NCBI RefSeq assembly: GCF_910596095.1
Contig: NC_056551.1
Coordinates: forward strand, 14,153,501-14,217,500
From: Thunnus maccoyii
Taxonomy: Eukaryota; Chordata; Actinopteri; Scombriformes; Scombridae
Reading direction: 5' to 3'
DNA: 64,000 nucleotides
Made by a program: the position numbers and the translations under genes. This document shows positions 1-63,088 of the stretch, in pieces. The notes beneath the pieces were generated by a model, which saw only the letters and a program-made list of their open reading frames with translations, ran no database searches and had not been told where the DNA came from. Within the stretch, counting starts at the first letter, position 1; each line of letters begins with the position of its first letter.

Positions 1-6068
<6,068 letters not shown>

Positions 6069-33850: not shown

Positions 33851-33880
33851 TTGGACAGTGACAGATTGAGCTTTGCTGCC

Positions 33881-36842
33881 ATGGAGGGTAATCACAGTGG
33901 CTTGTCTGGAAGCACACAGCCATCTGTGGCTGGAGAACAGACAGATGGACACATTTACGAGGTTGCCGTGCAGAACAGCTCCACCAACCGCAGCTCCCAG
34001 TTTGCAGATGTGGCACTGCTGCAGACGTTCAAGCCTCTCATCATCCCCTGTTACGTGCTGGTGGTAGTGGTGGGCGTCTTTGGGAACTACCTGCTCCTCT
34101 ACGTCATCTGCCGTACCCGCAAGATGCACAATGTCACCAACTTCTTCATAGGAAACTTGGCCTTCTCTGACATGCTTATGTGCGTGACGTGTGTCCCCTT
34201 CACTCTCGCCTACGCCTTCAACCCTCACGGTTGGGTTTTTGGCTGCTCAATGTGTTATCTGGTGTTTCTCATCCAACCTGTCACAGTCTATGTTTCAGTC
34301 TTCACGCTCACAGCTATTGCTGTTGACAGGTGGGTGAATCTCTCTGAAATGCCACTCAGATCAATTTTTTTCTTTGCCTGTTTTGTCCTTCATCATCTCT
34401 TTCCTTCAGTGGTGTTTGTGCTGCCACTTGCAAAACAGATTTATATCTCAGGAGACTGCCCTGGTTAGATAATGGTCAAATAAAATAAAGTGAATTCCCT
34501 CTCTATATTCATGCATTTACTTCACATTTCAAACACCATTTCAAATATGAGTGGTGTGTAATTGACAGAAATGAGACAATCAGAAAATGATATCCCATTT
34601 GTAGTAATTAAGAAATTAGGTGTGAAGATGGACTGATTAATCAGTGTGTACTTGCAATAGCAACACTTTAAAAAAAGGGCTCATGCTTAATAAATGCATG
34701 GCTAAAATATTACACATCATGATTCAGCGCATGCATCAATACATGATGTAACTTTGACTCCACCAGCTTAATATTAATCAGTGATGAAGGCTTTATTAGC
34801 TCATGTGACTGTACAATAAATTAGAAACTTTAATTAGCAAGTTAATTCATAGATTAATTAACACAGCTGCAGGATTTTAGAAGATGACTCCATTTCAGAA
34901 TGTATAAACAGAGACCAAAGAGTTTGAGCTTGCAGCAATGTGTACCTGATAGGAGCCGACCAAGATCCAATTATCCTGTTTTGTACTTTGCGCACAGACA
35001 GAAGAATCAGACATGTGCTGTGAAGAGATGTCTCCCATTAGACCCCTGAGATCCAAAGACTCTCTGCTGCTCGCTGTACAAAAAACTCACATCTACAGCA
35101 AAGCCGCCTTCTGCAGTTTTGCTCTCGAACTGTTGATTTCTCTCCCTCCAGTGCTGACGACAGCAGCATTAATTGAAGCTTTTCAGCACCACTTGAAAAC
35201 TTACCTTGGCTTTGCTTTCACGTAAAATTACTGCTCCACTTTCTTTTTGTTGTGTAAACCTCTGATCAATGTCAAAAGTTACAAATGTAAATGATTTTCC
35301 TCTCTTTTCTTGTCAAATGACACAGGTGTATGTTAAAATTGTCTGCTGTTTCTCTCTAAATGTTTCTGGTTGTCTCATATTACAGTTTTATTTTAAAGAG
35401 GCTTAAGAAACGCGCTGGTCTGAGCTTCTGCTTCACAGTTTTTCAAGTCTGGTCAGGTGCCAAAATGAACATTGAAACAAGTTTTACTTGCTGTAATCAT
35501 TTGTCCTGTTCATACAGACCATTAAGAGATCCCTACATAATGCACTTACAATGTAGGGGATGGGTGACAAAATCCACAGCCCTCCTTTTGTGCAAAAATG
35601 TACTTAAGTGGATATTTTTCTTTTTAGTGCCAAAGTCCTTCTTTTTGTTAGAATCTTTTTACTGCAGCTGAACAGAAAAGTCAGTCGAGACACGAAGAGA
35701 ATTTTTTACTAAAAAGACTGTGACTGTGGAAGATTTTGAAGACTGGAAGACTTTATTTGACTAACTCAGATGGCTGAAGCTTCATATTGACTGCAGATAA
35801 ACTTTCAAATACATTTCTGCATGGAAGGAGGCTTGTGGATTATATCACCCATCTCTTATATTGTAAGTACATTATAAAGGGATCTAATGGTCATTATGAA
35901 CAAGAGGAATGATTATGGCAAGAAAAGCCTATTTCAATGTTCATTTGGGCAACTGACTGTTGTTTTAAGACAGACTTGAAAAATTGTGAACCCATCCTTT
36001 AAAGCTAATTAACTAATTTAACATTTATAAAGCAAGTAATCACATGAACAACTGTAATAGTGATGAACCTTTATTAATTTTATGCTGCAGGAGTTCATGA
36101 TAAATGCATTAATTCATACATGAAATCATGATTAGTCATGCATTAAGCATGAGGGTTTTTTTCACCCTTATTATTAAGTACAACTCTTTCTTTTCCATTT
36201 TATTGCAGATATTATGCGACAGTGCACCCCCTGAAGAAACGTACATCTGTGGCTACCTGCGCCTCTGTCCTCACTGGAATCTGGCTGCTGTCTTGTGGGC
36301 TGGTAGCTCCTGCAGTGATCCACACCTATCATGTAGAGTTCAAAGAGGAAGGCTTCACCATCTGTGAGGAGTTCTGGTTGGGTCAAGAGACAGAGAGACG
36401 TGCTTATGCGTACAGCACCCTGCTGATCACATATGTTCTGCCATTGTCTGCTGTCTTTGTCTCTTATCTCTGCATCACTGTCAAGCTGAAGAAATGTGTC
36501 GCTCCAGGCAACAGGACACAAGGTCAGACGGGTGCTCAGCAAGCTCGTAAGAGAAAGATCTTTCGCTTGGTTGCACTTTTGGTGTCAGCCTTTGCAGTGT
36601 GCTGGCTTCCTATTCATGTATTCAATGTGCTGCGAGACATTGACATTCACATCATCAACAAGCGCTACTTTTTGCTTATCCAGCTGCTGTGCCACCTGTG
36701 TGCCATGAGCTCGTCTTGTTGTAACCCCTTCCTGTATGCATGGCTACATGACCGCTTCCGCACCGAGTTGAGGAAGATGTTCAAGTGCAATCGTCGCATT
36801 GGAGTGCCTGCCAATCACTGTGCTGCCAGTGTGGTCCTGTGA
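33881..36842 (+). CDS. prlhr: Prolactin-releasing-peptide receptor (PRLHR/GPR10 family)
   Basis: Class A peptide GPCR of the plasma membrane. Two exons, 33881-34329 and 36209-36842, give 1083 nt and 360 residues. The ATG at 33881 sits in a strong context (GCTGCCATGG). The N-terminus has NxS/T sites (NHS, NSS, NRS). Family signatures include HNVTNFFIGNLAFSDMLMC (TM2), PVTVYVSVFTLTAIAVDR (TM3), VCWLPIHVFN (TM6) and NPFLY (TM7). ECL2 has the expected Cys in CEEFW. The C-terminus ends ASVVL, close to the PDZ-ligand end SVVI of human PRLHR. The intron falls within the Arg codon of the DRY motif (AG|A), and splicing restores DRYYATVHP. Teleosts have several prlhr paralogues; I cannot tell which one this is. 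Confidence 0.92.
34330..36208 (+). other. prlhr: prlhr intron
   Basis: A 1.9-kb intron with a GTGGGT donor and a TATTGCAG acceptor after a pyrimidine-rich tract. AT-rich; no additional exon or named repeat is visible. Confidence 0.75.
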
Positions 36843-40149: not shown

Positions 40150-43100
40150 TTATGATTTCTCATTCTCAGACAAGTACAACATCTTCTGTGTCAGAGCAAA
40201 GTCTCGGGCTTCCTGAGGAGTGCGAATGTAAGAGTCAATTTCACTGTCAGAGATTTCCTCATAACCAGTTACATCCCTAAGCTCTGGCTGCTCCACTCTC
40301 CTTTTCTTAGCATGAATCACACATGGGGGAGCAAACAACACTCTCTTCCCCCAGTTTTGTGCTGGATCTTGGCTCTCCTGAGTGCCTGTGTCACTGTGCG
40401 GCCCAGACATTGTGCATGGATTACCATCTCCATCTCCTGGATGCTCAGCCCTTTCAGCATTCGGTTCACATTCTTTCACAGAGGACGTTTTCAGAGACTG
40501 ATCTACAAGCTCAGAGATTTGGGAGTCCTCACAGCCGGCCTGACACTCTGCCAGCAGAGTAACCTCATGGGTTCTCAGAGCCCTCCGTAGCAGTGCATAC
40601 CTGTTCATCAGAATGTCCTCCACCTGTCGAACAACATTATCTGGCGTCACCGCTTCCCTGACCCAGGGGATCTCCTTACCCAGCTTACACAGTACCTCCT
40701 TTATCTCGGTTATTCTCTTCAAAGCAGACTTGTTCTTATTCACTTTGGCTAACTGACAGAATTTCTCCAGAGAGAATTTGAGACGTTGCTTGTTGGGATT
40801 CAAGGACTGCCAAGCTAAAAAGACTGACGCCATCATAATGGGGATGGGCTTACGGCCGGTCACGATCCAGGAATCTGCTGCTAGCTCCACCAGGGCCACG
40901 GCACGTTTGGTCAGGTCCTTGGAGTTCTCAGCAAATTCTTCAGGAACGTGAAGCGAGCTAATTTTGTATCTGACAGAGAGAAAAACACTCAGCAAACATA
41001 GACATAATCTTCACATCTTTTAGGATAAAGGCTACACAGAGTCTGGATGAATATGTCTAAGAGTGTATCTGTTCTCTTTTCTGCCTGGTAGACATTATTC
41101 ATGTTAAATTAGTCCAATTAAGACAATTGGGAGAGCTGCTCATGTCTGAGTTTTTCAAAATTTTTAAATGCCAAAGTACAAACAGTGCAGGGAGATGCCA
41201 ATGTTTTATTTCAGACAGATCTACTTTTATTTTACTTCTACTTTAATTAAACTAAAATCAACTAAATGATCATTCCTGTCCACTAATGAAAATGAGTAAA
41301 TAATAAAAAGGACAATTTCTTGTAGGCCTAAGTCACAAAAAATCTTCAACAGGCTGTAAGATTAGTTAAATTACCAGTTAGTCATTTTGTTAAAAATCTG
41401 ATTCATCAGTGTAACTTTTGTTATTGTTTTGTTATTATACAAAAAAATGTCTTGCTGAGAGGCCTGTTAACACTTTATATTGCTGGTAAGCAAACAAAAA
41501 CATTCAGACCACTGTTCTTTACTTACTCCTGACTGTGGGCCTCCATTACATCTGTGACGTTGACGATTGGAGCCTCGATGTTAAGGATCTTGACCATCTC
41601 TTGATAGATGGCACCCACCACCATTGGGTCGGCATCCAGCAGGCAGCTGATGGTTCCCATGGTAATGGGCCAATTGAGCAGTCTGCAGCTTACAAGCACA
41701 CAGCAACCAGCAAGGATTTCTTTCTTCTGGAGGCTCACTCTGATGAAAGTTTCATGCTGATAGGCCCGGTTATAAAAGGTCTGTGAGAGATCCAAGATTT
41801 CATCGTGGACCCTGAGAGTCCGGCATAGGGCTTTCAGATGCTGCAGACCTGTAGAGATAGTGCATGAGCATGTGCATGTGAGAGCAGCGGGATCAGTGGG
41901 GATAGAGAGGAGGTAATATGTAATAATATCTCTAACAAGCAAAAGCTCCCCTTTGAGGGAAGATCTCACCTTTTATCAGGTTCATACACGGCTTCTTGGT
42001 CACAGCTGTTGTTCGGCTGTAGCTGACGACTGTAAAACGCACAGAGTTAAGGCAAAATGTGATAAGAGGGTTGCTGAGATAGAAACACTGAAACCTTACT
42101 GGTTTACATCAACTTGTAGACACCTGCGTGTAATCTGATCAAGATTAGAAACGCTATCTTAATCTTAACCATGTCATTTAAATGTTGCCAAAACCAAAAT
42201 ACAAAGAAGAAACCAATATTGTCCCACAGTGTTTCATTATGTTTTCCACAGTTCCACTTAATTCCAATATTGAACACACATTAGCCAGCTGGAGACTCTG
42301 TGCTGTGGCCTGGCGAGTTAATAGGTAGTCAGTTCAGCAATCAGCAGCACAGCAAACATAAAGATTAAAAGTTAAAATGTCTAAATACACTCTGGTTTCT
42401 CTGCTTTTTCAATGAACTGCAGGTCATTTCAGCTACATGCTAACTGCTCTCTTATCACAGAAACTATCCTTCACAAAGAATCACTGTTCATTCCAGTGAC
42501 CTGACACAAGCAGCATGGATTATTCATTAAAGAGCAGGACTCAACTGAAAACATCAATCAGTGGTTTTAGACTTCCCCAGGTTTTGAGAAGATATCTGCC
42601 TCCACCCCAATAAAATGGAGGTGAATGGAATTTCAAGTCAATTGAAGTCAATTTTTATTCGTATAGCTCAGTATCATAAATCACAGATTTGCCTTGTACT
42701 TATAGCATTGAAAAATAAAACTTTTTTTCTTTAGCATGTTCCCTAGAGGTTAGCACAATTCAAAATACTTTTTACATGACTGACAAGCTCATATAAGCAT
42801 AACATAAGTAAGACAGTATATATACAAAAAAAGAGACTGATGCACACAAATAGAAACAAGAAAACTGAAATAATACAACCAATAATGACCAAACAACATT
42901 TTAAATAAGCTAAAGAGGTAGGTTTTAAGATAAAGTGTACAGAAAGTGTATTCATACTTTCTGCTGCTCTCAGATCATCGGACAGCTAGCCTATAGGCTG
43001 TCTCAAAATTCAACATTTCCACAACAGGAAGTAGTTGCAATGAAAAATATTCACAGTGAGGTGACGTCTGTGGCTTATTCATAATAATCACGTCGTTGAT

Positions 43101-43874
43101 ATTGTTTAATAGAATATCTCAAAGCACTGTGTAAATAAAATCATAACTGTCTGCGAGGATAAGTGAGAAAACATGTTTTATGATTTGGGTAAACTTGCCC
43201 TTTAGTCATTTCATCTGGAACGTTTAACCGGTGTTTCGGTTTAAGGAGTGACCGTGTTAACTGGTGACTTTCAGCCGAGTGCGTGAGCGGTTGTCATAGT
43301 GATAGCAGTTGTTGAAAACACGAACAGGACACATAGAAAGCCTTAAAATGCTCTTATATTGAATGCCAAGTACAGTACATATATTCATCTGGTACTTTTT
43401 TGTCTGACATTATGTAAATTAAATGGTGTCGCCAACAATTAAAGCGTTCACATTTCCAGACAAGTTAAACAGACGAAAAGCTGGTCAACTTGTGAGACAT
43501 TGTTGTAATGATACTTTTACTTAAGTAAAGGATCTGAGTACTTCTTCCAACACTGCAGATCACAGAATCTGACGGGTAACCAAATACGATGTAACACCGA
43601 TGTAACACCGTCACTACGAGCAACCTTTCAGCATCCGGCTGAAAGTCGCCAGTAACACGGTCACTCGTTAAACCGAAACACCGGACAGACGTCGCTTGTT
43701 TTGCCACAACGCCAGACTGTTCATACCTGAGCCTCCGACCGGGTCATTGGCCAGCGCTCCTTCAGACACCACCGAGCCGCAGTCCACACACACCAGCTGC
43801 GCCTGAGAGTACAAATCATCATCGACGATGTTTGACGAGCCGCAGCCCGGGCACTTCAACCCCGCGCTAGACAT
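40150..43874 (-). CDS. brf2: TFIIB-related factor 2 (BRF2), RNA polymerase III
   Basis: Nuclear initiation factor that, with TBP and BDP1, recruits Pol III to type 3 promoters (U6, 7SK and similar). Four exons, 43727-43874, 41970-42029, 41527-41848 and 40150-40969, total 1350 nt and 449 residues with consistent phases. A zinc ribbon is at the N-terminus (Cys8, Cys11, Cys29, Cys32). Two cyclin-fold regions follow, with [16 protein letters not shown] and [20 protein letters not shown] as family blocks. The C-terminal block with [19 protein letters not shown] matches the BRF2 TBP-anchoring end. Cys393 in VLFAPPC aligns with human Cys361, the described redox-sensing residue. It is about 30 residues longer than human BRF2 (419), mainly in the linker before that block. 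It lies next to rab11fip1, as in human 8p11. Confidence 0.95.
42630..42705. repeat. Fragment of a dispersed fish repeat
   Basis: The phrase starting with CAATTTTTATTCGTATAGCTC and continuing through CACAGATTTGCC resembles a retroelement 3' tail common in teleosts (TTTATTTATATAGCCCAATATCACAAAT). It is short and decayed. The family is assigned from memory. Confidence 0.4.
43228..43684. mobile_element. Foldback/MITE-like element with long terminal inverted repeats
   Basis: The left arm 43228-43277 (CCGGTGTTTCGGTTTAA... to TCAGCCG) is the reverse complement of 43636-43684 with only a few mismatches. A weaker match extends each arm inward to about 80 bp. The spacer of about 300 bp has no coding potential. 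No clear target duplication is seen, so the superfamily is open. It lies in brf2 intron 1, about 40 bp from exon 1. Confidence 0.7.
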
Positions 43875-44159
43875 CTCCCCGAAATAAATCTGCTGCTGCT
43901 GCCCGGGGAGACAACTAAAGACAACAACACAGCAAAACAGGTGTTCAATTAAGTCGGAACACCTGCGATAGAACGGAACCCATCTTGAAACACTGTAAAC
44001 AGCTGTTGAACGACCAATGAACGTTGTTGTCGCCGCTCCGAAATGTGTCCGTGTAGATACAACATTCGACAGGTTCCGCTTGGTGCTGTAATACATTAAT
44101 CCATTCTTTCCTTCTTTTTCTTTTTTGTTTCTTTCTTAACATACAAAACACTTACAGTT

Positions 44160-46158: not shown

Positions 46159-49100
46159 CTACACCGTTTTCTTCAGAGAGTTCAAGGACATGAGAATACT
46201 TGGTTTCTCCTCCATGACACGCACAAGTAAGTTGTCAATGTAGTGCTCCAGCTCTGATATCTTACTGTCCCTCTCCACCAGCTGGTTCTCCTGTTTCAGC
46301 ACCAGAGAGATGAGCTCTGCCTGAGTCAGCTGGGAGTATGGCCCCTTCACCTTGGTGTCACTGACCTGTGAGAGCACATAAACACACTGAATATGTGGTA
46401 TATCAAAACACAAAACTCTTAACGGAAGATTCAAATGATGATACCATAGGTATTGAACATGTAAGATGAACAAAACACAGAAATGTCACTTTAGTCCGTT
46501 TCTTTTGATGAGCGGGATGGCTGATCTTTAAACCACCGCAAAAGTTACGGATGGAAAAATATACCTTTGTGTTCTCCTGAACGTCACGAAGGATTTCTGG
46601 GGATTTGTTATCTTTTTCCACTTGAGCGGCTGAGACAGACTGCTGTTCCATAGGATTAAGGGGTTTTACAGGTTGAAGCCTGCAATGACAAAAATGCAGA
46701 AAAAAATTAAGAAATAAATATGTAGGCACTGATTTGATAGAAGTTAAAGGGTATGAAGTATCAGTGTGTACATATGATTTAGTTATTAAGGCTGTTTGTG
46801 AGATGTATTATTTTTCTGAGATCAAAAAATAAAGCTAACCTGTTTAACTCATCTTGTGGCATTTATCCAGACAACACAATTAATAATCCAAGCAAACAAG
46901 AATGATGAATGATTAAAGATGAATGAGGATGAATCAAAGAAAGACTTTTTATGAAAGAGTAGTAAGATATCGGGAGCTTGTGGTGTGTGATCTATAATAT
47001 ATGAAGCGATGGATGAGTTACAAAACTATTCTTGCCTGTCTGTTGAGGAACTGAACTGTCTCACCTGCGTGGAGTTGCAACAGGCCCTTCCTTCTTCCCA
47101 CCTGTCTCCTCTCCAGCACGCAGCACTGTCACAGGCTCTTGTAGCGGACTCTCCTGGACAGGCACAGGGTGTATGGCTTTTGGCTCTGGATCACATTCTT
47201 GTGTTGCACTGTTATCAGGTGCAGTCACATGCGTATCATCTGTAACACAGACTCCGTCAGTGTTTTGTTTGTTTAAAGTGCTTGATGTGGTGGCTGTCTT
47301 TGCAGGAGGCAGGGGTGCACGGGCTATCTTTGACGATTTGATTTTTGTTTGCGAGACGTCATCTTTATCATGAGTTTGTGACACAGCTGGAGGCCAGAGT
47401 ATTGAGCCAGTGTTACTAGAGGCTGTTATATCATCTTGGGCTGTGAGCTCATTTTCATCTACATCGTCGTCAAATGGATTTAAACCGTAAACAACAGGGA
47501 CTTGTTTTGCCTCCGAGACACGTCCATGAGATGTTTTCTGTTCAGGGAACGGCTCCTCTTCCGCAGAGCGAGGTCTAGACGGCGCAGGTCGTTTAGTGTG
47601 TTTGGCTGCTGTTGTTGTTGTTTCTTTGGTGGTGCTACTTTGCGTCAAGCTCTGGTTGTTCTTTGTATCTTTGGAAGACCTACTCAGAAGAGCATTCAGC
47701 TGCAGCAAGCGCTGTGGGAGAACACTAGCAGTTTTGACATCTTTTTCTTTACTTGGCCTGTTAATTTGTGCCAGATGTTGTGTAGATGCGTCTAGCTCAC
47801 TCTGACTGCGTCTCTCAGCTTGATTTCTTCCTGGAGGCTGAGGAGCTTGTCGCTTCTCCCGTTGAGTCCTAATAACGGCCTTTTCATCCGCGGAAATGGC
47901 TGTGCTTCCCGCTGATGGCTCAGGAGATTGACATCTGGAAATGAGAAACAGAGTATATGACATTAAAGCCTGCTTAAGTGTTTCATCAAAAAGGAGTCTC
48001 TCAGGGGAAGCCAGAATACTCTAAATGATGAAAGAAAAGAAGAGGAGCTTCACTGGCCTTGAATCGTTCTCTAAAACAAGTATAGACGGTGAAACTAGAT
48101 TAAAAGACATTAAAATCTTGTGTAACATCCTGTGTTGCAAAATTAGAGAACAAACGGGGAGAACACAGTAGCACAAAAGAGAAAAAGCTTTTAATATGCC
48201 AGACAAGTCTTCTCCTGAGATCTCTCTGAAATTACCATCTACCTCCACTGTCATTTTCTCTCCCTGTTAATATGACACCTGATATAATGAGGCGAGACTA
48301 CGCAACGAGCTGCCAATCTCAGTTGACAAAAGAAACGTGACCTTTCCAACACACACATGCATGCGTGTTGCACACTCGTGCAAAGTAACATACACGCACA
48401 AGCTCGGAGCTCTGCAATTTTCATGACTGTGTCGGCTTCAGGTTGCATTTAAATGAGAAGTTCCTGTTGCTGAAGCGTCACCGACTGTAAAATAGAAGAT
48501 GAAATAACAATCGATTGTTCAGATAACGCTTTTTGTACATGTAAATGGCCATGACTTCTTATCATCGTTTTAATCTTGCATTCAAATTTAGTATCACTAC
48601 CTCCTTTTCTGTTCCTGATCCTGTTCTCTCAAGCATTATAAAGCATTAACTAACATTCATCTAGTTAAACCCTGCTACACTGTTCAAACCACATGAATCC
48701 ACATTGTTTTATACTTATTTCTGATTTGAGTGCACGCACACGCACACACACAGCAAGGTGTAGACGAGTGTGGCCTTCAAATCCATCAATGAGGTTGAGG
48801 TGTAGAGAATGTGCTACTTTTTCTGAAAATTTTAGATTATTTATTCAGTTTTGAGATGAAATTTTCCATGTAGTGTGAAGACTGACCTTTGCTGGACACT
48901 CGACGCTGCAGCAGCTGAGTCTGGACTCTCAAAGGGATTATTTGAAAAGTTTTCTTCAAATGGATTAGTAGATGTAACTTCTTCAGGACTTTTGCTCTGT
49001 CCATCTTTTGTTTGATTTTCTTTCTTCTCCTGTTCTTCTGCGTCTCCTGTTAACCCCCTTTTCTCCAGCTCCTGAGCCTCCTTTTCCTTCCTCTCTTTTC

Positions 49101-52100
49101 CCGCTTTTTCCTGCATCCTAATCCTCTCCTCTTCCTCTCTTTTAGTTTTCTCCTCTTCCTCAATCCTCCTCTTTCCTTCTTCCTCTAGTCTCCTCTCCTC
49201 TGCTAATCTCTCCATTTCTTCCTTTTCCTTCCTCGCCCTCTCCTCTTCCTCTTGTCTCCTCTGCCTCTCTTCCTCCTCCATCCTAATCCTCTCCTGCTCT
49301 TCCCTTCTAAGTCTGTCCTCTTCCTCAATCCTTTTCCTTTCTTCCTCATCTAGTTTCCTCTTTTCCTCTGCCAATCTCTCTAACTCTTCCTTTTCCTTCC
49401 TAGCCATCTCCTCTTTCCTAATCTTTTCCTCTTCCTCAATTCTCCTCTGTTCTTCTTGCCTCCTGACCATCTCTGCTTTCCTCTCCTCTTCCTCCCTTCT
49501 AATGTTCTCTTCTTCAATTCTCTTCCTCTCTTCTTCCTCTAGTTTCCTATTTTCCTCTTCTAATCTCTCATATTCTTCCTTTTCCTTCCTTGCCTTCTCC
49601 TCTTCCTCTTTTCTCTTCTCCTCCTCTTTCCTAATCCTTTCTTCTTCCTCTAGTCTTCTCTTCTCCTCATGCTCTTTTTGTCTTCTCACCCTCTCCTCTT
49701 CCTCTTGTCTCCTTTTTTCTTCCTGAGCCCTTTCCTCCTCCCTCCTGATCCTCTCCTCTTCCTCCAGTCTGGCTTTCTCCTCTTCAATCCTTCTTTCTTC
49801 TTCCTCTTGTCTCCTCTTTTCCTCTGCTAATCTTTCACGCTCTTCCTCTTGTCTTTTCACCCTCTCCTCCTCCTCCTCGTTTTCTTTCCTCCTCCTCTCT
49901 TCCTGAGCCCTTTCCTCCTCCATCCTAATCCGTTCCTCTTCTTCCTTTCTAGATTTCTCTTCCTCAATCCTTTTTCTGTCTTCTTCTTCCTCTTGTCTCC
50001 TCTTTTCCTCTGCTAATCTTTCACGCTCTTCCTCTTGTCTTTTCACCCTCTCCTCCTCCTCTTTTTCTTTCCTCCTCCTCTCTTCCTGAGCCCTTTCCTC
50101 CTCCATCCTAATCCTGTCCTCTTCTTCCTTTCTAGCTTTCTCTTCTTCGATCCTTTTTCTTTCTTCTTCTTCCTCCCGTCTCTTTTCCTCTGCTAATCTT
50201 TCACGCTCTTCCTCTTGTCTTTTCACCCTCTCCTCCTCCTCTTTTTCTTTCCTCCTCATCTCCTCCTGAGCCCTTTCCTCCTCCATCCTAATCCTGTCCT
50301 CTTCTTCCTTTCTGGCTTTCTCTTCTTCAATCCTTTTTCTTTCTTCTTCTTCCTCCCGTCTCCTCTTTTCCTCTGCTAATCTTTCACGCTCTTCCTCTTG
50401 TCTTCTCAACCTCTCCTCCTCCTTTTCTTTCCTCCTCCTCTCTTCCAGAGCCCTTTCCTCCTCCATCCTAATCCGTTCTTCTTCCTCCCTTCGAAGTTTT
50501 TCTTCTTCTTCAACCCGCCTCCTTTCTTGCTCCTCAAGTCTCCTCTTTTCCTCTGCTAATCTCTCACGTTCTTCTTCCTCTCTCCTAACCCTCTCCTCTT
50601 CCTCAGCTCTCTCCTCCTCCCTCCTAATTCTTTCCTCTTCCTCCCTTCTACGTTTCTCTTCAATCTGCTTTCTTTCTTCTTCCTCTATTCTCCTCTTCTC
50701 CTCAGCCAACCTCTCCAGCTCTCGTCTCCTAACCATCTCCTCTGTCTTTTCTTTCATCCTCATTTCTTCCATATCCTCTCTCTTATTTTCTCCTTCAGCT
50801 TCCTCCTCTTCCTCCTCCGTCCAGGGTGAATACTGCCTCACAGCTCTGAGTGAATCAACAGACGGGGGAGAGCTTTCAGGGACATCTTCCATGGATCCGT
50901 GGCCTGAACTGGCCAGACTGAAGTTTGAGCCGATGCGAGCGGTCCGAGGCTGTGGCTCTTCACAGTATACGTGACTGCCATTGATGCACAAGTTACTTTG
51001 CTCCGCTGAGCCGTGTTTCTGTTGACCAGCTGTGGAATCTTTGCTGTCTGAGCTGCCGGAGCGTTTATGTATCATGAACTTGAACTTCTTTTTACCTAGA
51101 GAAAGTTAACACACATTTAATGACAGAGAGGATGAGAATGAAAGGAATGATGGTGATTGAGTAAAATAAGAAGTGTTGCTCCTGACCTTCAGAGGAGTCC
51201 ACATTCAGACCAGAGGACTGGCTGCCGCTCAGCGAGGAGTTCTTTGCAGGCAGAACAGACATGGACTGCGACATGTTCTTCTGCAGGTTAGACTTTGGAG
51301 AAAACAAAGACTTCATCTTAAGTTTCTTCTTCTTCTCGTCCTTTCCTGCAGCTACCTCGCCATCCCCGTCTCCCTCCCCCTCGCTGTCTGTCAGAACCTG
51401 GGTAAAGGACGGCACTATGGTAGACACAGTATCCGATTCCTTTTTCTTGCCACGAACTTTGTCCTTGAACTTGCCCAGGCGTGATCGGGATTTGCCGGCA
51501 GCAGAGAGGTCAAACATGCTGGCGGTCATGTTGTTTCTCATGAACTGGATGTCCACAAGCACCTCTCCTCTGTCTTTGTCCGCCTTGCCCGTCTTGTCCA
51601 GCAGCTTAAACCATCTGTTAAAGAGACGCAGGTTATTAGAGTGACGTTTTAACAGAAGCATGTTAACAGATACATCATCCCTAAATGTGCTATTACACTA
51701 CACTTATATAAACACCCTTCAAGTCTTCCGACCATTCAAAGCACTACGAGCCACATTCGCACACACATACGCTGATGGCCGGGGCTGCCATGCAAGGTGC
51801 CAATCAACCTGCTCATCAATACGATCTAATCACACACATTCACACTCCGATTGCACAGCCATCACGAGCAATTTGGGGTTCAGTATCTTGCCAAAGGACA
51901 TTCGACATGTGGACTGGAGGAGCTGGGAATTGAACCGCAGATCTTCCGATTAGTGGATGACCCGCTCTACCTCCTGAGGCACAGCTGCCCCAGTGTAATT
52001 TAAATTTTAAGATATGAACTGCATGAACAAGCAACAACTTCTTATTCAGTATCTAGGTCTATGGCTTAGTTGAAATCAATATCACAATTTTAATAAGAAT

Positions 52101-55100
52101 ATTATCAGATGTGCATATATCACAGTATGGCAAGTGTGAGCAAAATCATAATTTAAGTGAATTTCAATGCAATGAACTGTGGTTCAGTGTTATGCATTAT
52201 GTCAGACAAAACTTTGTTTGAATTTAGTTGTTCTTAGAATTATACTTCACTTTTAATTATTCATTTGGACAACATTTTGTAAAGAAGAATGAGTTAATAG
52301 TTACCCAATCCTACCAAGGGCCTGTGTTCATTCATGAAAATTAAGATGGTGTCAGCTGTTTCTAACCCTTCACACATCTGCAACAGCAAGAGTTGTATTA
52401 TCAGAGCTTCATTTCCTCAAAACTATTATTCAACATAATGTAATCTACTGAATGGATTTAAGGACTTCAAAACAAATCTAAACAAAACAAAGATTTGTAC
52501 AGAGATTCATGTAAAGCATGTTGATGTTTAGTCCTAGTCAGTTTCTTAATGGAAACTATGATCAATCCTGCAGCAAACGGAAAGTGACTCAGTAGCAACT
52601 CCAATGTTTTTGGAAAGTCTGATGATCTAAGCACAACCAGCAAACTGACCATGAAGGAAAGTTCTTTAAAAAAAAAAAAAAAAAGAAAAAAAAGAAAAGA
52701 AACAACATTCTGTCTGTGGCAACCTCTAACATGGAGAATTTATGAATGCTTGTACTGTGTATACTTATAATTTATGTGTCATTATTTAGTTGGCTGTACT
52801 CTTGCCATCCTACATTTTATGGATGACCCTTTTTTTTTTTCTTAGATTGATCTCTCAAATGATCAAATCCTAATAAAAAGTCATCTAACCCCACAGCCTG
52901 GGTCGACCCCCTAAAGCAGGGAGTTGTTATCTAACAAGACTGGTCTCTGCTCCTCACAAAACTTAAACCAGTCAGGTTCACGAGGAACAATCTGCTATTA
53001 ACCTCATTATCACTCTTTAAACATACTGTCTGCCAAAGAAAAAGAATCAATGCCAACTAACGTTGTAGCAGGGTCACATATCCTTGGCTTTGGGTAGACA
53101 AAACAATACCAAGATAAGCACTGGTTACAACTAAAAACTAACAACTTGCAGAATAACTTTAATTCTCAGGATAAAATGTTAAAAAGTCAGAAAACAGACA
53201 CAGTAAGACTTCCACTGTGACCACGCTGTGCCAACTTTGAACTGCTTCTGCACCTTTGTCATGATCCAACACTAACAGAAGGGTCTCAGAGTAAGCAGAA
53301 CAATTTAATAGAACCATGAAAAACGAACAGTCAGCATAAAAAATGCTTATCAAGCAGAAATCTGAGGTCAGCTCACCACTGAACAAACAACTCCAACTGA
53401 AATCTGGATTCCTGGGGAAATGAGGAAGGGGCTGTGCGTGCGTGCGTGCATGTATGTGTGTGCGTGTGTGTGCGTGTGTGTCCGCATTTCTGTCTGTTCT
53501 GTCTCTCTCTGTTCTTCAATGTGAAACAAGAAAGTAACCTACAAAATGAACAGATTGGGCTCATAAATACAGCTTTAAAAAGCTTTACACAACATGTTTT
53601 GTGTGTCTGTGTCATAAACAGTATTTTCCCCTCAGTTTACAAAACACCTCGCCCTGAGATGCCACTGATATATAAAAATAGACCCAGCTGAATATAGTGC
53701 CTTCCTCCCAGTGGTACTGAATCAGTCATGTTGTTGAAATTCATCCTCCTCTCTTAGGAATCCCTTCAGATGTGTAGCACAAACAAATTAAGGAGGGAAA
53801 CGCCTTTTCCTGCATTTTGCAGAATGGTTGAGACTGCTGTCACACCTCCCTGCCTCCTTCCTCTGATGAGTAATGGGATGTGATTTGCAAATTTCAGGCC
53901 CTGACGTTATTCATATTCCACTGTGACACTTAATGATCTGTCTGATGACTGTCCTTGAACAAAACATCGATAGCTAGATAATGCATTTATTTATTGCGCA
54001 AGTGTAGACAGTGTTATGCAGCTGTTATGTTCTTACTCTCATGCAGAGTGTCATATTTATACGTGGCGCACAGTTATGAAAAAGAATATTTCATCCAATC
54101 CCTCTGTGGTGTTGTGATGCATCCTTTTGAATAGTTTCATTGTCAAAATAGGACAGTTATACCATTCTTTCTCTCCTCTCAATATAATAATAAAAATGAT
54201 ATTTCAGATATTTGATGGTATACAGCATGTTGTAGCATAAAAGAGCTGGGCAATAAGTCAGTGTTGTGTGTATTTCACATGTGATTTTGCACATATTTGC
54301 CAGATCATGGTATCAATAACAGAAAATGTCCTTATCAATATAAATTAATTCACCCATGCCACCCAGCCCTGTAGTGTAGCTCTTGTATTAGTAGAGTAGT
54401 GTATAGTAACAGCATTAATATTGCATTAGTATAGCATAGTTTTAGTATATGTAGTGGTGTTAGTACAGTATAGTAAAAGCATGAGTATAGTGTTGGTATG
54501 GTATAGTAAAGTAATAACATTAGTATAGTATTGGCTAGTAATAGTATTAGTAAAGAATTAGCATTGTATAAATGTCAGAATGCATTAATATAGTGTGGTA
54601 GAGCATTAGTATAGCACAGTATTAGTATATAATATAGCATAGCATTAGGATAGTATAAGAATAACTGGCTTGTGGCCACTTAAAAAGAAGCAATGTCTAA
54701 ATACATGTATACATATGTATATTTTTACCTGAAGAGGTCAAATAATCTGTTAATTTAAGAGAAAAAAAGCAAAGATTTGAGGAAAATCTTTTTTTCCCCC
54801 TGCTTTCCTCTTTTTAGTAATTATCTGGCAACCGCTCAATTTAGCATTAGTTTTTGTAATGTAATATGGGAATTAGTATCACATTAGTATTAGAGTTAGT
54901 ATAGTAATGTATTTTATAGTATGGTATTGGCAATAGTATAGCATAACTATATAGTATAGTATAGTATGGTATAGTATAGGATATGATACTTCACTGATGC
55001 CTATAAAAGCTACAAAAAAAACACATCCCACATTAACAAGTAAAAAAGAGAAGTTGCCATTTCAGTTTTAACAGAAGGGAAGTTGCATAAGTCTTTGGGC

Positions 55101-58100
55101 GTCAACTGGTTGGTAGTAAGTAATGTGCAGGAGGAGGAATTAAAAAGCAGCTTTCACTTAATGCCTGGATGATGGTGATGATGATGATGATGATGAAGAT
55201 AATGATGATGATGATGCCCTTAAACTCAGTAATCTCACACCCATGTTCAGAGTAGGAAGTGTGCTGCTCTGCTATACAGACAGAACCAGACAGGATAGTG
55301 CATGACTCAACAGTTTATAAATGTATTCTACTTTCTGCACACACACATCCTTCCCTGTGAAGCCTAAACTACTGATAAGACAATGCCCTGAGTGGCTGAA
55401 GCCCTTCTTATCGCAGAACACAGCTGCGTGAGTGGGCGAAGAGCTGACTGAGTAAAACAACTCAACAGTGATAATGTCCAAGGACCAAAACTGTCCAGGG
55501 CTTTATCCTATCAGTCCATATTCATGAGTCATAGAAGCCAAGATGAAAGCCTGTGCACAGGAAACAGAGTGAAACTGAGAAGAAATTTCTTTTCTCATGG
55601 GTGTCACAGAACACTGGTTGCACCCTGTGTTATATTTAAACCCAAAATCAGTCACAATATATGCTAGAGCACACACTATGTTGAGAAAAGAGGACAACTT
55701 CCAGCGACGCTGTCTCAAATTCTCAAACCACGATATGCTGGTCAGATGTAACTGAGACTTGCCTAACTACAGGTTCCTTAATATCTTTACACCATAATGC
55801 TTCTATAGGTGATGAGATCTGTTATGAAAGTGTTTTTTACAATTAGAGTCTGTTTTTTTTCCCCACTATCAGGGTTTCACAGCAGACGGAGATCAGGAGA
55901 TTTTGGTGAGAGAAGGAAATGTCATTTGGCTCATTATTTGCCTCGCTGATGTGGACTCTATAACACCCCTGTAGCCAATAGAGTTCTTCAAGAAAAAGAT
56001 ATGACACCTGCAAATAGGAAAAGCACAGGTGTAAATAATACAATTAATGACATCTGAAATCTATTTATCTGCTTCGATTTCAGGTGCACGCTGGCTCACT
56101 GTAACTCTGTCATGTCTTACTACGAACCTTGAATATAACTGAGCCATCGTTAATGTGATTAGTAACACCCGAGCTGTGTCGCCAGTTCTATGACAAGTCA
56201 ACACGTCTGCTGTGAAAAAGGCATAAAAGTAGTACACATTAAATCGCACTTTTTTTTTACATGACTGCCCGATAATGTTTTTGCTGCTTAAATTTCTTGT
56301 TTTTAACTGACAAAACTACACCTACAATCAAATTATCAAAGTTTACCCAAACAGCCACAGTCTTGATATTAATTACTGCATTTCAATTAGTAATTTAAAA
56401 CAACTGTTAAGCCAACATGGACAAAAAAGTCCATAAAATACAAAATTTAAATGTTTACACCTACAATTATATGACAACTAGGAAAACTTTGTATGTTGAG
56501 GAAGATCATGTGATACGATTGAAAGCTCAGCTACTAATGGGACCTGCTATGAGACGGTTGCTTATAGAGATGTAATGTTAAATATGCAAATAAAAAACTT
56601 TCTACATGGTCTTTTCCCTTTCAAGTTAAAGGTGCAGTGTGTAGAATTTAGTGGCATCTAGCAGAACAGACTTGGCATAAATGGAATATAATATTCATAA
56701 GTATGTTTTAATTAGTGTATAATCACCTGAAAATAAGAATCGTGTTTTCATTATCTTAGAATGAGCCCTTTATATCTACATAGGGAGTGCGTCCTTTTCC
56801 ACAGAGCCCTCCATGTTGCACCGCCATGTTTCTACAGTAGCCCAGAACAGACAAACCAAACACTGGCTCTAGAGAGGGCCTTTCACGTTTTTCTGCGCGA
56901 GTTTAGTGGCCACCATAGGTTCTCCTACATGTTTGGAAGTGGATGCCACTAAATCCTACACACTGGTCCTTTAATGCTCAATGATCTTCAGTCTATCTTC
57001 TAAATACTTATCTAGCACGTCAAACAGAAGTACTAATTCAGATGTCTTAAAATGTATTTATCAAAATAACTACCATAATCCAGGACTGAGAGAAAAAAAA
57101 AATAATTATAGTGCCTTACTTTGCAAGTAACACATGTTCAAAAAGAGCAAAACACTTTAAACAGTAGAGCTCTTGTACTGGCAGCTTGTGGAACATGTAA
57201 CACTGTTGGTCTGTGCAGCCACAGTGGTCTTGCTCAGAAAAACTGACCTTGCTTGACTATCGCTGTTGCCATCACTGTTTTTCATTGATAAAACAGTCAG
57301 GAATGTGAGGCTACAGCCGGATTTAAACCTCAGAGGCAAGGTGCATTCATCAAGCTCACAGAGAGCTACAGACAGGTCAACATTAAACAAACACAGCATT
57401 TACTCGACGCCAGCTAAAGCATGTTTGCTTACAAAAAAAAAAAAAAAAAAAAGTATTTTCAGTGTAGGAAATCCTAATAAAGCTCTAAACTTGTATTAAC
57501 ATGCAAATCTCTGCAGCCATGCAGAGGGAAACACACTGCATCTGATTTTTGAATGACAAACTAGCAGAAAGGGCAGATGTGATCAGAGGTGCGCACACAA
57601 CAAAACCTTAAATCATGCATGATCCAACATGCAACATGAATCCAGGTGAATTTTAGCTTATCATACTGGAACATCCGGTTTTTTCAGTTCACAAGAACGA
57701 TTTGGACATTGTATTTTTTGTGACGCACATACACACACAAAAAAAACTTTTAGGCGGGTTGACTACTTGCTCTGTTTTATAAAACGTTTGCCATAATATA
57801 TATAAAAATAATATATTATATATATAAAATATAAAAACAGGCAGCAAATATTGTTTACATGAGCAGTACTGAACGACAACATCAAATCTAGTACTAATAT
57901 GGATTACATTTCATTGTATGCAACTACTAACAGAGCACCAACAGACCCAAACAACCCTTGAGAAGGTGGGAGTGAGTGTGCGTGTGTGTGTGTGTGTGTT
58001 TATGTAGACAAACAGGCTGGTATGCAGTCTGCTTTTGTATAATACCGGTCACACGGCGGGGGACTAAGATGCTCAGAAACAGCTTAGCACAGCAGAACAT

Positions 58101-60288
58101 TTTCCATTCTTACTAAGACACACAAGTCTAACTGTGACGGGGCTGAGGAGTCTTGCATTTCAAATTTTATCAAGTATAACTTGAATTTGACAAAGTGCAT
58201 ATTTTCTGTTTAAAGGAGAAAGTATAATAACTATTACTGAGTCTATACAGTAGTACCAGTAAGGCCTGTAAAACCTGATCACTCCCATTAATACCACAAA
58301 CTAAAGATAGATCAAGAGAGATGGGCGTGAAGTTTTTGCAAAGTAAAGACAATGATCACCTCGGTTATTTACGTCACGTACTTTTCTCAGTGTATGGGAT
58401 GTCATGAGAATTTTAAGTGAAATCAATGCTTGATGTTTGGTCTCAGCATCAAAAAGGAGACTGCTTTTTTGGGCATGGTGAAGGGAAGTCTGGGTCTTCT
58501 TTTGTCTCTTGTTGACAAGTTCAGTCAATGAAAGAGTGAATCCTTTGACTAATTTCATTCGCCTGAGTAAGTAATACTGGTTGAAGGCTGCAGCAGAGAG
58601 AGCAAATCCCTTAAGCTGCACTGGAGCGAGTGGGCAACTTTCATAACTCAAACCCACCAGGGCGGGCCTGTGTATTGATGCATGGCCGTGTGTGTGTGTG
58701 TGTGTGTCTCTGTGTGTGTTTGTGGTGGAAAAAAGGTGTAAATATCACTGGGGGAAATTGATTATGAAATTCCAGTTTAAGGCAAACATATTCATATGGA
58801 AATCTTGATCAACAGCTTCCACAGATGCTGCATAATTTTTGTATTAGAACAACAACAGAAACGGTTTGTAATTATTAGGGATTCAGTGGTTAATGTTTTA
58901 TCCTGCAAGACCACAAAGCTGCAGTATGACTGACAGAACCAGCAACCAGAAGTTGTTCCTCCTGTGGCGCAGATGGAAATCAAAGCTCCCTAGTCTTCAG
59001 AGGACTGAGGAAACTCTCTTGTATGTTTTTGTTATGTACTGTTTGATGTGAGGAAGCTGAGAAAAAAAAGACTACTTATCTCTACAGTAGAGCCAATACT
59101 GTATCGATTCCTTTAAATATTTCTTTTGCCTTTCATATTTCTTTGTCATGAAGACTTACATGTCCTCTGGGAGCTCAGGGGGTCAACTGCAGAGCAAGAC
59201 TCAGGGAAAATGCTTGCCAACATGGGGAGCTTCTCTGATTATTATTATTTTTATTTATTCTTTTAGCTGTTTAAACTAGGGCTGCAACTAACGGTTATTT
59301 TGTTTATCCCTTAATCTGCTGATTATTTTCTCAATTAATCAATTAATTGTTTCATCTACAAGATGTCAGATAGTGAAAATGCCTGTTATACTTTTCCCAG
59401 AGTCAGAGGTGACATATCCATAGGTCCTGTTTTGTCTGATCAACAAGGCTGGATTCAGATTCACTGCTTGTCAGTTGCTTTTGTTAATTTGACTAATTGC
59501 ACACTTGTTAAGGAACTTGAATCACTTAAGTAAGCCCTGCAGTGTTAACTAATTTCTTGGCCTTATAGAGAGGCATTACATGGTACATAAATCTAAATAA
59601 AGTGGTGCTTAACTAATTAAATGACCACAATAAGGCCCCAACACAAACTGTTACCTAGGAGCCACCAAATTACTCCAAAACCCCAAAGATCTTCTGTTAC
59701 CATCAAAGAAAAGCATTAATAGTAAATTTGAGAAGCTGAAACCAGCTAATTTTGGGGGCATTTTTGCCTTGAAAATGATTACAAGATTATCAAAATAATT
59801 GCCAGTTAATTTTCTGTAGATCAACTGATAGTTTGATCGTTGCAGCTCTAGTTTCAACACGTGAGTCACCTCCCTGATATTCCCTTTGAAGAAGAATTGT
59901 TTAGTTAAGAATCTATCCATTTAACATTTAACAGCACTTACTCGGTCTTGTTTCGGGTTTTGTCCTCGCTGAGCGGCAGCAGGTTGATGACAGCCTGTCC
60001 CAGCAGCTTGTCTGGACCCACCAGGGCCCGGTGCAGGACGTTGACGCGCAGCGTGCTTCGCTCCCCTCCGCCGCCCTGATGCAACGGCGGCAGGTCGAAG
60101 GCGGCCTCCTCCTTCCACACCGGAGCCACGCTCTTCTCCACCACCGAGGTCTGGTACTTTTCCTTACCCACTTGCATGACCGCGTACGCATCGTTAGTGC
60201 CGCTTTTCCCCTTTATCCTGAGGCCTCTGGCTTGGAGTACCGTTACCTGGACGCTTGAGGGACACCACTGCTGCTCCGCCAAGGACAT
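46159..60288 (-). CDS. rab11fip1: Rab11 family-interacting protein 1 (RAB11FIP1/RCP), complete, with giant ER/K-rich exon
   Basis: Class I Rab11 effector of recycling endosomes. Exons are 59942-60288, 51187-51614, 48887-51095, 47065-47934, 46565-46679 and 46159-46365; phases agree and total 4176 nt (1391 residues). The start is MSLAEQQW at 60288. A C2 domain spans about residues 10-170, with VQVTVLQARGLR and the conserved DIQFMRNNMTASMFDLS downstream strand. Residues about 351-936, all in exon 3, are almost only Glu, Arg and Lys. NPF motifs (EH-domain ligands) lie at 969-971, 978-980 and 1147-1149. The last 60 residues are the Rab-binding domain (YSQLTQAELISLVLKQENQLVERDSKISELEHYIDNLL in parts). 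Exon 1 is CpG-rich. Human RAB11FIP1 has the same ends but, as I recall, no such helix. brf2 is the downstream neighbour, as in human. Confidence 0.94.
46680..47064 (-). other. rab11fip1: rab11fip1 intron between exons 4 and 5
   Basis: 385 bases, with a GTGAGA donor and a TTGCAG acceptor. Nothing else is recognisable. Confidence 0.75.
47935..48886 (-). other. rab11fip1: rab11fip1 intron between exons 3 and 4
   Basis: About 950 bases with a GTCAGT donor and a TTTCCAG acceptor. A CA-rich patch is at 48732-48751. Short open frames here do not fit the splice phases, and I see no exon. Confidence 0.7.
49050..50820 (-). repeat. rab11fip1: Coding tandem repeats of about 180-186 nt in rab11fip1 exon 3 (predicted single alpha-helix)
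   Basis: A marker phrase (plus strand GCTAATCT, encoding part of RLAEEKRR) recurs at 49826, 50012, 50192, 50375 and 50555, a period of 180-186 nt or 60-62 residues. Units share blocks such as RIRMEEERAQEE and RQEEERERLAEEKRR. Period changes are multiples of three, so the frame is kept. Charges alternate in runs of 3-5 acidic then 2-4 basic residues with almost no hydrophobic heptad, typical of ER/K single alpha-helix rather than of a coiled coil. The coding strand is strongly purine-rich. Confidence 0.9.
51715..51991 (-). mobile_element. tRNA-derived SINE
   Basis: Read on the minus strand from 51991: a GGGGCAGCTGTG head, an A-box-like TGCCTCAGGAGG and a B-box-like GGTTCAATTCC, then the body with TTGGCAAGATACTGAACCCC and GCATGGCAGCCCCGGCC. 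This matches a SINE family widespread in teleosts. It has a few differences from the usual B box, so it is moderately old. Confidence 0.8.
53431..53482. repeat. Microsatellite (TG/CG)n
   Basis: GTGCGTGCGTGCATG followed by alternating TG and CG units, in rab11fip1 intron 1. Confidence 0.9.
54370..54990. repeat. Degenerate TAGTAT-type minisatellite, interrupted
   Basis: Hundreds of bases are built from variants of TTAGTATAG and AGTATAGCAT. The array is split by a non-repetitive stretch of about 180 bases (about 54660-54840) and ends in cleaner TATAG/TATGG units. Units differ in length, so the array is old and drifting. Confidence 0.8.
55168..55216. repeat. Trinucleotide repeat (GAT)n
   Basis: GATGATGGTGATGAT... 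with a GAAGATAAT interruption near the middle, in the rab11fip1 intron. Confidence 0.95.
56626..56974. mobile_element. TTAA-flanked MITE (piggyBac-like, non-autonomous)
   Basis: The 349-bp element begins TTAAAGGTGCAGTGTGTAG and ends with the near reverse complement (CTACACACTGGTCCTTTAA). Inverted repeats of about 34 bp have few mismatches. Both ends carry TTAA, the target site of piggyBac-type elements. It has no coding capacity. The family is common in teleost genomes, often seen as TTAAAGG...CAGTGTGTAGGATTTAGTGGC. Confidence 0.85.
57975..58000. repeat. Microsatellite (GT)n
   Basis: GTGTGCGTGTGTGTGTG run in rab11fip1 intron 1. A second GT run is at 58688-58722. Confidence 0.95.
59277..59850. 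mobile_element. hAT-type MITE with an internal insertion
   Basis: The ends are TAGGGCTGCAAC and GTTGCAGCTCTA, 12-bp inverted repeats with one mismatch. Flanks GTTTAAAC and GTTTCAAC form an 8-bp target duplication with one difference, as expected for hAT. The interior matches the well-known fish element with repeated TTAATC-type motifs. About 225 bases near 59448-59672 do not belong to that family and separate its CTGTTTTGTCTGATCAACAA and CCAAAACCCCAAAGATCTTC parts. Confidence 0.8.
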
Positions 60289-61952: not shown

Positions 61953-63088
61953 TCACTGTGTCCTCATTTCATTTCTTGAATCTTGGCTGCTTTTGTCCTC
62001 CTCTGGATTTTCATCCTCTAAAACTTTGTTGTCACTTTGGTCCTCCTGGTCCTGATCACCTACAAGGACTTTGCTGTAAAGTTTCTGCTGCTCTTCCTTG
62101 AAAGCGTCTTTTACCTTTGCTCGTTTCAGCCCTCCGTCCCTGAGAGCACACAAAAGAAAAGAGTATCACACACAGACTGAACACAGTGCTATTAGTTACC
62201 TCCTCCACAAACGCTGAAGGGAAGAACCAAGATTGCCCCCTCAAATTAGCTCTATAATACGTGTAATACTGCACAATTTCCATTGGAGCTAAAGTTAATA
62301 ACGTTATAGTTTGTGAATCAGCAGCTGCAGTTTATGCCAGTGGCAACCTCTCTTTCTAATAACCATAGACACATATAATTTTACTGATGTATATCATAAC
62401 AATTAAATACAACAATGACTCACCAAATGAGATCCACTAATCCTCCTTGTGCAGCAATGGCTGCTTTCACTCGATTGGCAAACTGCACTGCATCCTCCCC
62501 TTCCTACAAGAAGACAATAAAAAAGAACAGACCAATAAAATATGGGAAATGTTCTCCAACATAACCAGATATTTAGCCAGTAGGTTACACCAAACTATAT
62601 ACTGGGACACAAAATATTTTGTAGGGTTTCACCTCTCTGTTCATAGGTGGCAGATACCAAACGCTGCATACGATTGCCCAGCTGCTCATCATCCTCAGCA
62701 GATAGTTCACCATACCAAACTTACTGCTGTTCCAGAAAGCATCCCCAAAGCGAGGATCATACTGCAAGATTGCAAGATAGAAATAAGATCATATCATGCA
62801 CAGGTAAGAGCAAAATGAGAAAAAAAGGAGGAAAAAGACAAAAAAAGCTCCTACCTTAATGGCAACTGGATAGACGGTGCAGCCGATTTCGAAGCTGCCT
62901 TTTTTGAACATCATCACTGATGTGTTGTTGATGCAAGTTCCTGTAGATGACACAGAGTGACGCTCTTAGCAACACTAAACACCAAACTTTACAAGCTCTA
63001 CATGTTTTAAAGCATTATATCATCATACACACCCTCAGGGAAGATAAGAATAGGCTGTTTGGTTTTGTCAGCAACATGATCGCCAAGC
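61953..63088 (-). CDS. gpat4: Glycerol-3-phosphate acyltransferase 4 (gpat4/agpat6), 3' part, last five exons
   Basis: ER-membrane enzyme that acylates glycerol-3-phosphate, the first step of glycerolipid and triacylglycerol synthesis. Coding exons are 63033-63088, 62855-62940, 62633-62761, 62424-62503 and 61953-62139, all in phase. Acyltransferase motif III is seen as ILIFPEGTC (split across an intron) and motif IV as VYPVAIKYDP. Then follow FGDAFWNSSKFGMVNYLLR, SWAIVCSVWYLPPM and DGGLKRAKVKDAFKEEQQKLYSK. The tail after that is about 35 residues long and very acidic, longer than in human GPAT4. GPAT3 is the close alternative. The SVWYLPPM and GGLVDL wording fits GPAT4 better, and human GPAT4 shares chromosome arm 8p with BRF2 and RAB11FIP1. 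Upstream exons lie beyond the right edge. Confidence 0.88.

Follow-up and report, generated by a model that had tools for sequence, protein, structure and literature searches.

A predicted single alpha-helix (SAH) of 587 residues, rich in Glu, Arg and Lys (the ER/K segment), is encoded within the third coding exon of a rab11fip1 gene in the window (the whole 64,000-nucleotide stretch of DNA that was analysed). The helix, which would have grown by tandem duplication of a unit of approximately 60 residues, probably acts as a semiflexible leash within this Rab11 effector.

The rab11fip1 gene model consists of six coding exons on the minus strand and encodes a protein of 1391 amino acids, with the domains and motifs in the order given in Table 1. 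Pfam placed a C2 domain over amino acids 12-120 (1.8e-19) and an RBD-FIP domain at the C-terminal end, the pairing found in class I Rab11-FIPs. A search of the FIP domain against PDB sequences returned five matches, with FIP1 (4d0g) at the top (1.9e-13, 53.2 bits), FIP2 entries at no more than 42.9 bits and no FIP5 chains among them. The next recognised gene downstream is brf2, in the same strand and order as at human 8p11.23, where BRF2 and RAB11FIP1 are tabulated as adjacent and both on the reverse strand (PMC7598661), and this shared neighbour supports the FIP1 assignment. The C2 and RBD-FIP domains and the brf2 synteny identify the gene as the orthologue of rab11fip1 in a fish-like vertebrate; the initial annotation had given it the same name, which the Pfam domains and the FIP1 match in the PDB uphold. 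The interval singled out there is exactly coding exon 3, which lies in frame between exons 2 and 4 with the borders tttctctag/GTAAAA and GCAAAG/gtcagt. No Pfam family was found in exon 3 or exon 4 at an E-value of 0.01, and the ER/K segment had no match among PDB sequences at 1e-6. The exon 2 and exon 6 proteins gave 212 pattern matches and 172 matches, respectively, against viral and prokaryotic contigs, none of which was confirmed and which have no bearing on fish.

Table 1. Features of rab11fip1 and its neighbour brf2 (positions within the window)
Feature	Position	Strand	Basis
rab11fip1 coding exon 1 (aa 1-115), most of C2	59942..60288	-	ATG to GACCGA/gtaagt
rab11fip1 coding exon 2 (aa 116-258), C2 end and basic/Ser-rich linker	51187..51614	-	AG/GT, in frame
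rab11fip1 coding exon 3 (aa 259-994), 2209 nt, ER/K segment and two NPF	48887..51095	-	AG/GT, in frame
ER/K segment (aa 352-938), predicted single alpha-helix	49057..50817	-	composition, charge pattern and score, AlphaFold
Three most similar units of ~60 aa (about 180 bp), u3-u5 (aa 497-679)	49834..50382	-	unit comparison
NPF motif 1 (aa 969-971, exon 3)	48958..48966	-	
NPF motif 2 (aa 978-980, exon 3)	48931..48939	-	
rab11fip1 coding exon 4 (aa 995-1284), 870 nt	47065..47934	-	AG/GT, in frame
NPF motif 3 (aa 1147-1149, exon 4)	47472-47480	-	
rab11fip1 coding exon 5 (aa 1285-1323)	46565..46679	-	
rab11fip1 coding exon 6, FIP domain and stop codon	46159..46365	-	Pfam RBD-FIP
Rab11-binding FIP domain (exon 6)	46192-46326	-	Pfam RBD-FIP 1e-14
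brf2, ORF pieces, not a full gene model	40153..44135	-	Pfam BRF2-like_C_cyclin_rpt 6.8e-43, TFIIB, Zn_Ribbon_TF 8.6e-09

The ER/K segment contains 257 Glu, 141 Arg and 61 Lys (459 of 587 residues, 78%), with no proline, three Gly and six Asp, a composition in keeping with that of SAHs (E/R/K up to approximately 80%, rare Asp and no helix breakers). The nearly pure Glu/Arg/Lys stretch noted initially was thus recovered, while its bounds moved from residues 351-936 (approximately 585 residues) to 352-938. Read in its other two sense frames, the segment is interrupted by 21 and 41 stops, and random relocation of the differences between repeats created a stop in 558 to 1854 of 2000 cases (eight repeat pairs); the open frame is therefore no trivial product of purine richness, a reading that was rejected on these counts.

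The charge pattern was compared with that of 500 composition shuffles of the segment. Opposite charges were enriched at the i+3/i+4 spacing (z 6.6 to 13.1), with counts at +4 of 165 and 138 compared to approximately 90 in shuffles, while like charges at +4 were depleted (51 compared to approximately 186, z -13.9). Charge power peaked at a period of 7.5, and such pairing with a period near 7 is the pattern of SAHs. An SAH-like score, obtained from a simplified re-implementation with its own weights and not from Waggawagga, stayed at or above 0.25 without a break over amino acids 370-929 (49-residue window) and had a mean of 0.52 inside compared to 0.28 (SD 0.014) for composition shuffles. An alternating EK control scored 0.48, near the segment's 0.50, and each of the nine repeat units, scored alone, exceeded its own shuffles (300 per unit) by 4.4 to 6.8 SD. 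It was also observed that the shuffle mean already exceeds the 0.25 line.

AlphaFold, run on one sequence with five models, drew one helix over model residues 13-599, which is exactly amino acids 352-938, with a mean pLDDT of 68.3-77.1 across the five models. In the best model (77.1) the pLDDT was 55-68 in blocks 181-210, 291-320 and 411-430, and the pTM was 0.23. As AlphaFold readily draws charged sequences out as helices, these dips and the pTM leave continuity over 587 residues unproven, and the segment is predicted with moderate confidence to form a single very long helix. The proposal of a lone helix in the initial annotation was accordingly matched, as a prediction, by the SAH-like score and by AlphaFold. 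Arg exceeds Lys in the segment (141 compared to 61), which was counted against the SAH reading; designed SAHs aggregated when they had two or three Arg per heptad, while more Arg in the natural myosin-6 SAH caused no aggregation (PMC5347031).

A helix of 587 residues has a contour length of about 84-88 nm. With an SAH persistence length of approximately 15 nm (PMC5347031) its rms end-to-end distance is approximately 47 nm, which would make it a semiflexible leash rather than a rod; the 88 nm first proposed holds as a contour length and not as a reach. In the gene model the helix follows the C2 domain and precedes the NPF/RBD end, as had been supposed. The C2 domain of class I FIPs binds phosphoinositides, these proteins dimerise through a C-terminal coiled coil, phosphatidic acid is a further ligand of the Rip11 C2 domain in vitro (PMC4678287), and SAHs act as constant-force springs below 30 pN (PMC4183817). 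We infer that the ER/K segment is monomeric and serves as a tether, spacer or leash: the recycling vesicle would keep the NPF motifs and the Rab11-bound, dimeric FIP domain, the N-terminal C2 domain would capture acidic lipid on the target membrane, and the helix would set the capture radius, yield at low force and leave the middle of the protein without forced dimerisation. At the position of the helix mammalian FIP1 has a disordered Ser/Pro-rich stretch; mammalian RAB11FIP1 is not known to have an ER/K helix and would work without one, which counts against the leash. The initial annotation likewise took the mammalian protein to lack the segment, which may be fish-specific as proposed there. 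Also against the leash is a Rip11 mutant that insulin still brought to the plasma membrane although its C2 domain lacked phosphoinositide binding (PMC4678287), as C2-lipid capture is then not always needed.

Exon 3 carries both a repeat structure and signs of coding constraint. The ER/K segment consists of nine repeats of the unit, and TRF reported a 180-bp array at 49678-50604 (5.1 copies, 87% matches). The pN/pS ratio was 0.08-0.60 in all 36 unit pairs, and synonymous differences exceeded the relocation-null mean in all eight pairs tested; a separate non-coding repeat was rejected on these two results. A purine-only codon-position test was marginal (p = 0.053, two disjoint repeat pairs), and the other changes among u3-u5 were not concentrated at position 3 (7 of 17). 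Coding constraint on the repeat could be merely against toxicity or aggregation.

It is possible, though rather unlikely, that the segment reflects neutral or near-neutral growth of a GA-rich minisatellite in a tolerant, formerly disordered linker, its length having no selected function and the helix being a chance outcome of purine-rich codons that encode E, R and K. The GA-rich strand with its 180-bp tandem units fits such growth, as do the middle copies, whose closer likeness is consistent with recent duplication, the frequency of SAHs (about 1.5% of a species' genes; PMC5812594) and the large part of the SAH-like score that composition alone supplies. However, salt-bridge spacing at i+3/i+4 goes beyond the composition of every unit, the copies differ by an excess of synonymous changes over the relocation null, and 587 codons run without a stop.

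That the helix serves to bind a partner such as microtubules, actin or nucleic acid along its surface, in place of a spacer role, appears improbable, and would be compatible with the leash. Microtubule binding has been assigned to the N-terminal half of the INCENP SAH (PMC4571873) and the CAF-1 KER SAH binds DNA, but the KER is described as carrying a basic stripe (PMC10335832), whereas the ER/K segment is net acidic (-61 overall; the first five 100-residue blocks carry -9 to -13 each and the last, shorter one -4).

It is distinctly improbable that exon 3 or its repeat is absent from the mature mRNA, through skipping or internal splicing or because it is an artefact of the assembly. GA-rich tandem repeats are easily misassembled, which counts for an artefact. 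Of the unique human SAH-domains in genes with several transcripts, 319 (80.6%) are missing from at least one transcript (PMC5812594). Against this, the length of exon 3 leaves a remainder of 1 on division by 3, so that skipping shifts the frame; a simple pattern scan found one donor-like GGTRAG site and no polypyrimidine-AG acceptor within the exon; and the reading frame and synonymous enrichment are kept.

A stiff tether in the form of a long, dimeric coiled-coil rod, its chains parallel as in the FIP C-terminus, is highly improbable: the FIP C-terminal coiled coil does dimerise, so that two chains lie side by side (PMC4678287), and SAHs can be mistaken for coiled coils, as with INCENP (PMC4571873), but the segment has only 66 strong hydrophobics in 587 residues and no hydrophobic seam (no neighbouring hydrophobics spaced by 4; no i,i+3/4,i+7 triples, little below the 1.6 expected by chance; apolar a/d occupancy, Ala included, 0.5 in the best 28 residues with a median of 0.25), and a coiled coil was rejected on this basis. 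The 7.5 period, the i+3/i+4 pairs and the few hydrophobics favour a single alpha-helix, as predicted from sequence.

SAHs are a known kind of structure. The INCENP SAH, described as a 'dog leash' and characterised by solution methods, is longer than the CAF-1 KER; it is likewise long and charged and links two functional ends, but belongs to another protein, binds microtubules and is about 2.8 times shorter (213 residues, approximately 32 nm; PMC4571873). Myosin SAHs are similarly E/R/K-rich and salt-bridged with few hydrophobics (about 9.6%, compared to 66/587 here, although the residue sets may differ), but rarely exceed 80 residues, reach about 200 at the longest and have a lever-arm role (PMC5378345). 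The CAF-1 Cac1 KER differs in its basic stripe, DNA binding and 6.5-fold shorter length (PMC10335832). Class I Rab11-FIPs (RAB11FIP1/RCP, FIP2 and FIP5/Rip11) share the N-terminal C2 domain, C-terminal RBD-FIP domain and NPF motifs with the present protein, which differs in the 587-residue ER/K helix between C2 and NPF.

Among the matches listed from open-licence PMC papers, no title concerned an SAH in a Rab11-FIP, and the titles and matching passages described no SAH of this length and none in a Rab11 effector. If made, the helix would be well above the 40 to approximately 200 residues quoted for putative SAHs (PMC5347031) as well as about 2.8 times the INCENP SAH, and could make rab11fip1 an unusually long tether for recycling vesicles. 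It would then be a protein ruler with its length set by a tandem repeat, and a natural test of tether length between C2 and the Rab-binding end against vesicle capture. More tentatively, it may be the longest natural SAH so far, a Rab11 effector leash that lengthens or shortens through unequal crossing-over, approximately 60 residues (approximately 9 nm) at a time; tether length could then differ between fish species or alleles, tuning the vesicle capture radius. Sixty residues equal eight charge periods of 7.5, so that the salt-bridge phase is roughly kept when a unit is added.

The model of rab11fip1, a Rab11 effector gene of the FIP family, comprises six exons joined across GT-AG introns into a single reading frame of 1391 residues, and its coding exon 3 has the same bounds as the exon that the initial annotation had singled out as encoding a giant ER/K helix. 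Pfam searches placed a C2 domain at residues 12-120 (1.8e-19) and the C-terminal Rab11-binding RBD-FIP domain in the last exon (1e-14), and no Pfam family was matched in exons 3 and 4 at 0.01. The best PDB match of the last exon was FIP1 (4d0g, presumably the human protein; 1.9e-13, 53.2 bits), compared with at most 42.9 bits for FIP2, and FIP5 was absent from its five matches. The C2 region matched other C2 proteins (15 matches at 1e-5), Munc13-1 being the top one. The first recognised gene downstream is brf2, which shares the strand of rab11fip1; at human 8p11.23, BRF2 (37,843,268-37,849,861) adjoins RAB11FIP1 (37,858,618-37,899,497), both being listed as reverse (table, PMC7598661). Assignment of the gene as a putative FIP1 orthologue rests on two lines, namely the closer PDB match of the last exon to FIP1 than to FIP2 and the adjacency of brf2 as in human.

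The ER/K segment (residues 352-938) contains 257 E, 141 R, 61 K, 24 A, 22 L, 21 I, 21 Q, 14 M, 8 V, 6 D, 4 N, 3 G, 2 T and one each of S, H and Y, with no proline. Its two other sense frames carry 21 and 41 stops, and purine richness alone therefore does not explain the open frame. Purines make up 88% of the coding strand (1550 of 1761 bases; longest run 42 nt); long purine tracts may form triplex DNA and may be difficult to sequence or assemble. As exon 3 is 2209 nt long, which is not a multiple of three, skipping it would shift the frame; a scan of its interior with simple patterns picked out a single donor-like site, and no acceptor of the polypyrimidine-AG type. Skipping of exon 4, at 870 nt, would leave the frame intact.

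The helix was assessed with a simplified single alpha-helix (SAH)-like score modelled on Waggawagga, with rules from PMC5812594 and weights of our own. The score stayed above 0.25 without a break over residues 370-929 (49-residue window), and 98% of interior positions passed with a 14-residue window. The segment scored 0.52 against 0.28 (SD 0.014) for composition shuffles, so that composition alone clears the 0.25 line and the pattern is visible only in the excess. Controls gave 1.0 (EEEEKKK), 0.48 (alternating EK), -0.02 (RBD exon) and -0.07 (coiled-coil heptad). Because repeat copies are not independent, the nine repeat units were also scored separately, and all nine lay 4.4 to 6.8 SD above shuffles of their own sequence. 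The 35-residue lead ahead of the first unit scored just 0.22, and the helix core is thus better placed at about 370-930.

Relative to 500 composition shuffles, opposite charges at +3/+4 were enriched in both directions (128, 165, 140 and 138 vs about 90) and like charges were rarer (96 for +3 and 51 for +4 vs about 186), and the charge spectrum was highest at period 7.5. Hydrophobic residues in the segment showed no top peak near 3.5, no neighbours four apart and no heptad triples, for which chance expectation is only 1.6. AlphaFold2, run on residues 340-960 alone, predicted a single helix over the whole segment (model residues 13-599), as the initial annotation had proposed, with a mean pLDDT of 77.1 in the best model (others 68.3-75.3), three dips to 55-68 and a pTM of 0.23.

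After its lead, the segment is laid out as nine units of 50-89 residues; identity autocorrelation was at its maximum at 60 residues (0.44 vs 0.27 expected), and TRF reported a 180-bp tandem array of 5.1 copies. Values of pN/pS were 0.08-0.60 across all 36 unit pairs, with pS close to saturation in many. In a relocation null, in which every observed difference was moved to another site having the same base (2000 simulations), mean synonymous changes fell below the observed number in all eight pairs covered, and the observed value was reached in 0-71 of 2000; these pairs, out of 36, share units and represent seven of the nine units, the seventh and ninth being omitted. Among the three most alike units (the third to fifth), 14 of 18 A/G changes were at codon position 3 (P = 1.4e-4; three non-independent pairs), while two disjoint pairs of repeat units gave a marginal 11 of 20 (P = 0.053) and other changes among the three units lacked the bias (7/17). 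The overall evidence from these comparisons favours selection on the encoded protein.

In class I FIPs the C2 domain binds phosphoinositide and a C-terminal coiled coil with the RBD dimerises (PMC4678287), and Rab11-FIP1 is described as interacting with phosphatidic acid and being mobilised into pseudopodia (PMC9231559). SAHs have a persistence length of about 15 nm (PMC5347031) and act as constant-force springs below 30 pN (PMC4183817). The previously proposed reach of about 88 nm holds as the contour length of the 587-residue helix and not as its end-to-end distance, for which a worm-like chain of 15 nm persistence gives an rms of 46.8 nm. From these properties we infer that the segment may serve as a semiflexible leash, which would keep C2 well apart from the vesicle-side NPF/RBD end. 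The nearest worked example is the SAH of INCENP (213 residues, about 32 nm), termed a dog leash. A simple lipid-capture model is weakened by a Rip11 C2 mutant that does not bind phosphoinositide, as its insulin-triggered translocation still occurs (PMC4678287). The leash and binding-surface readings are compatible, and the odds given to the rivals overlap.

Putative SAHs are stated to span typically 40 to about 200 residues (PMC5347031), the longest in myosins is given as about 200 residues (PMC5378345), and a 2023 paper considers a solved helix of 90 residues to be the longest so far described (PMC10335832). No title on an SAH in a Rab11-FIP was among the matches listed in literature searches.

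Features of the window, with coordinates and basis
Feature	Position	Strand	Basis
rab11fip1 model	46159-60288	-	
Coding exon 3	48887-51095	-	
ER/K segment	49057-50817	-	
Tandem array	49678-50604		TRF
Rhodopsin-type GPCR (7tm_1), two halves as two ORFs	33764-34465, 36153-36839	+	Pfam
Reverse transcriptase fragment	15665-16477	-	RVT_1
Pao/BEL-type retrotransposon remains	21632-22528	+	Peptidase_A17
ORF, no Pfam match	5796-6101	-	Pfam
ORF, sub-threshold Siah-Interact_N match	61953-62165	-	19.6 bits vs cut-off 23.5

Elsewhere in the window, the first GPCR half matched the prolactin-releasing peptide receptor in PDB (6.1e-45). The reverse transcriptase fragment probably derives from a LINE-type retroelement, the LINE label being a guess, and adjoining ORFs at 21048-22827 may form part of the Pao/BEL-type element. 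The ORF with no Pfam match bears what we take to be a likeness to the N-terminus of AAK1/BMP2K kinases, and the ORF with the sub-threshold match is perhaps a cacybp exon.
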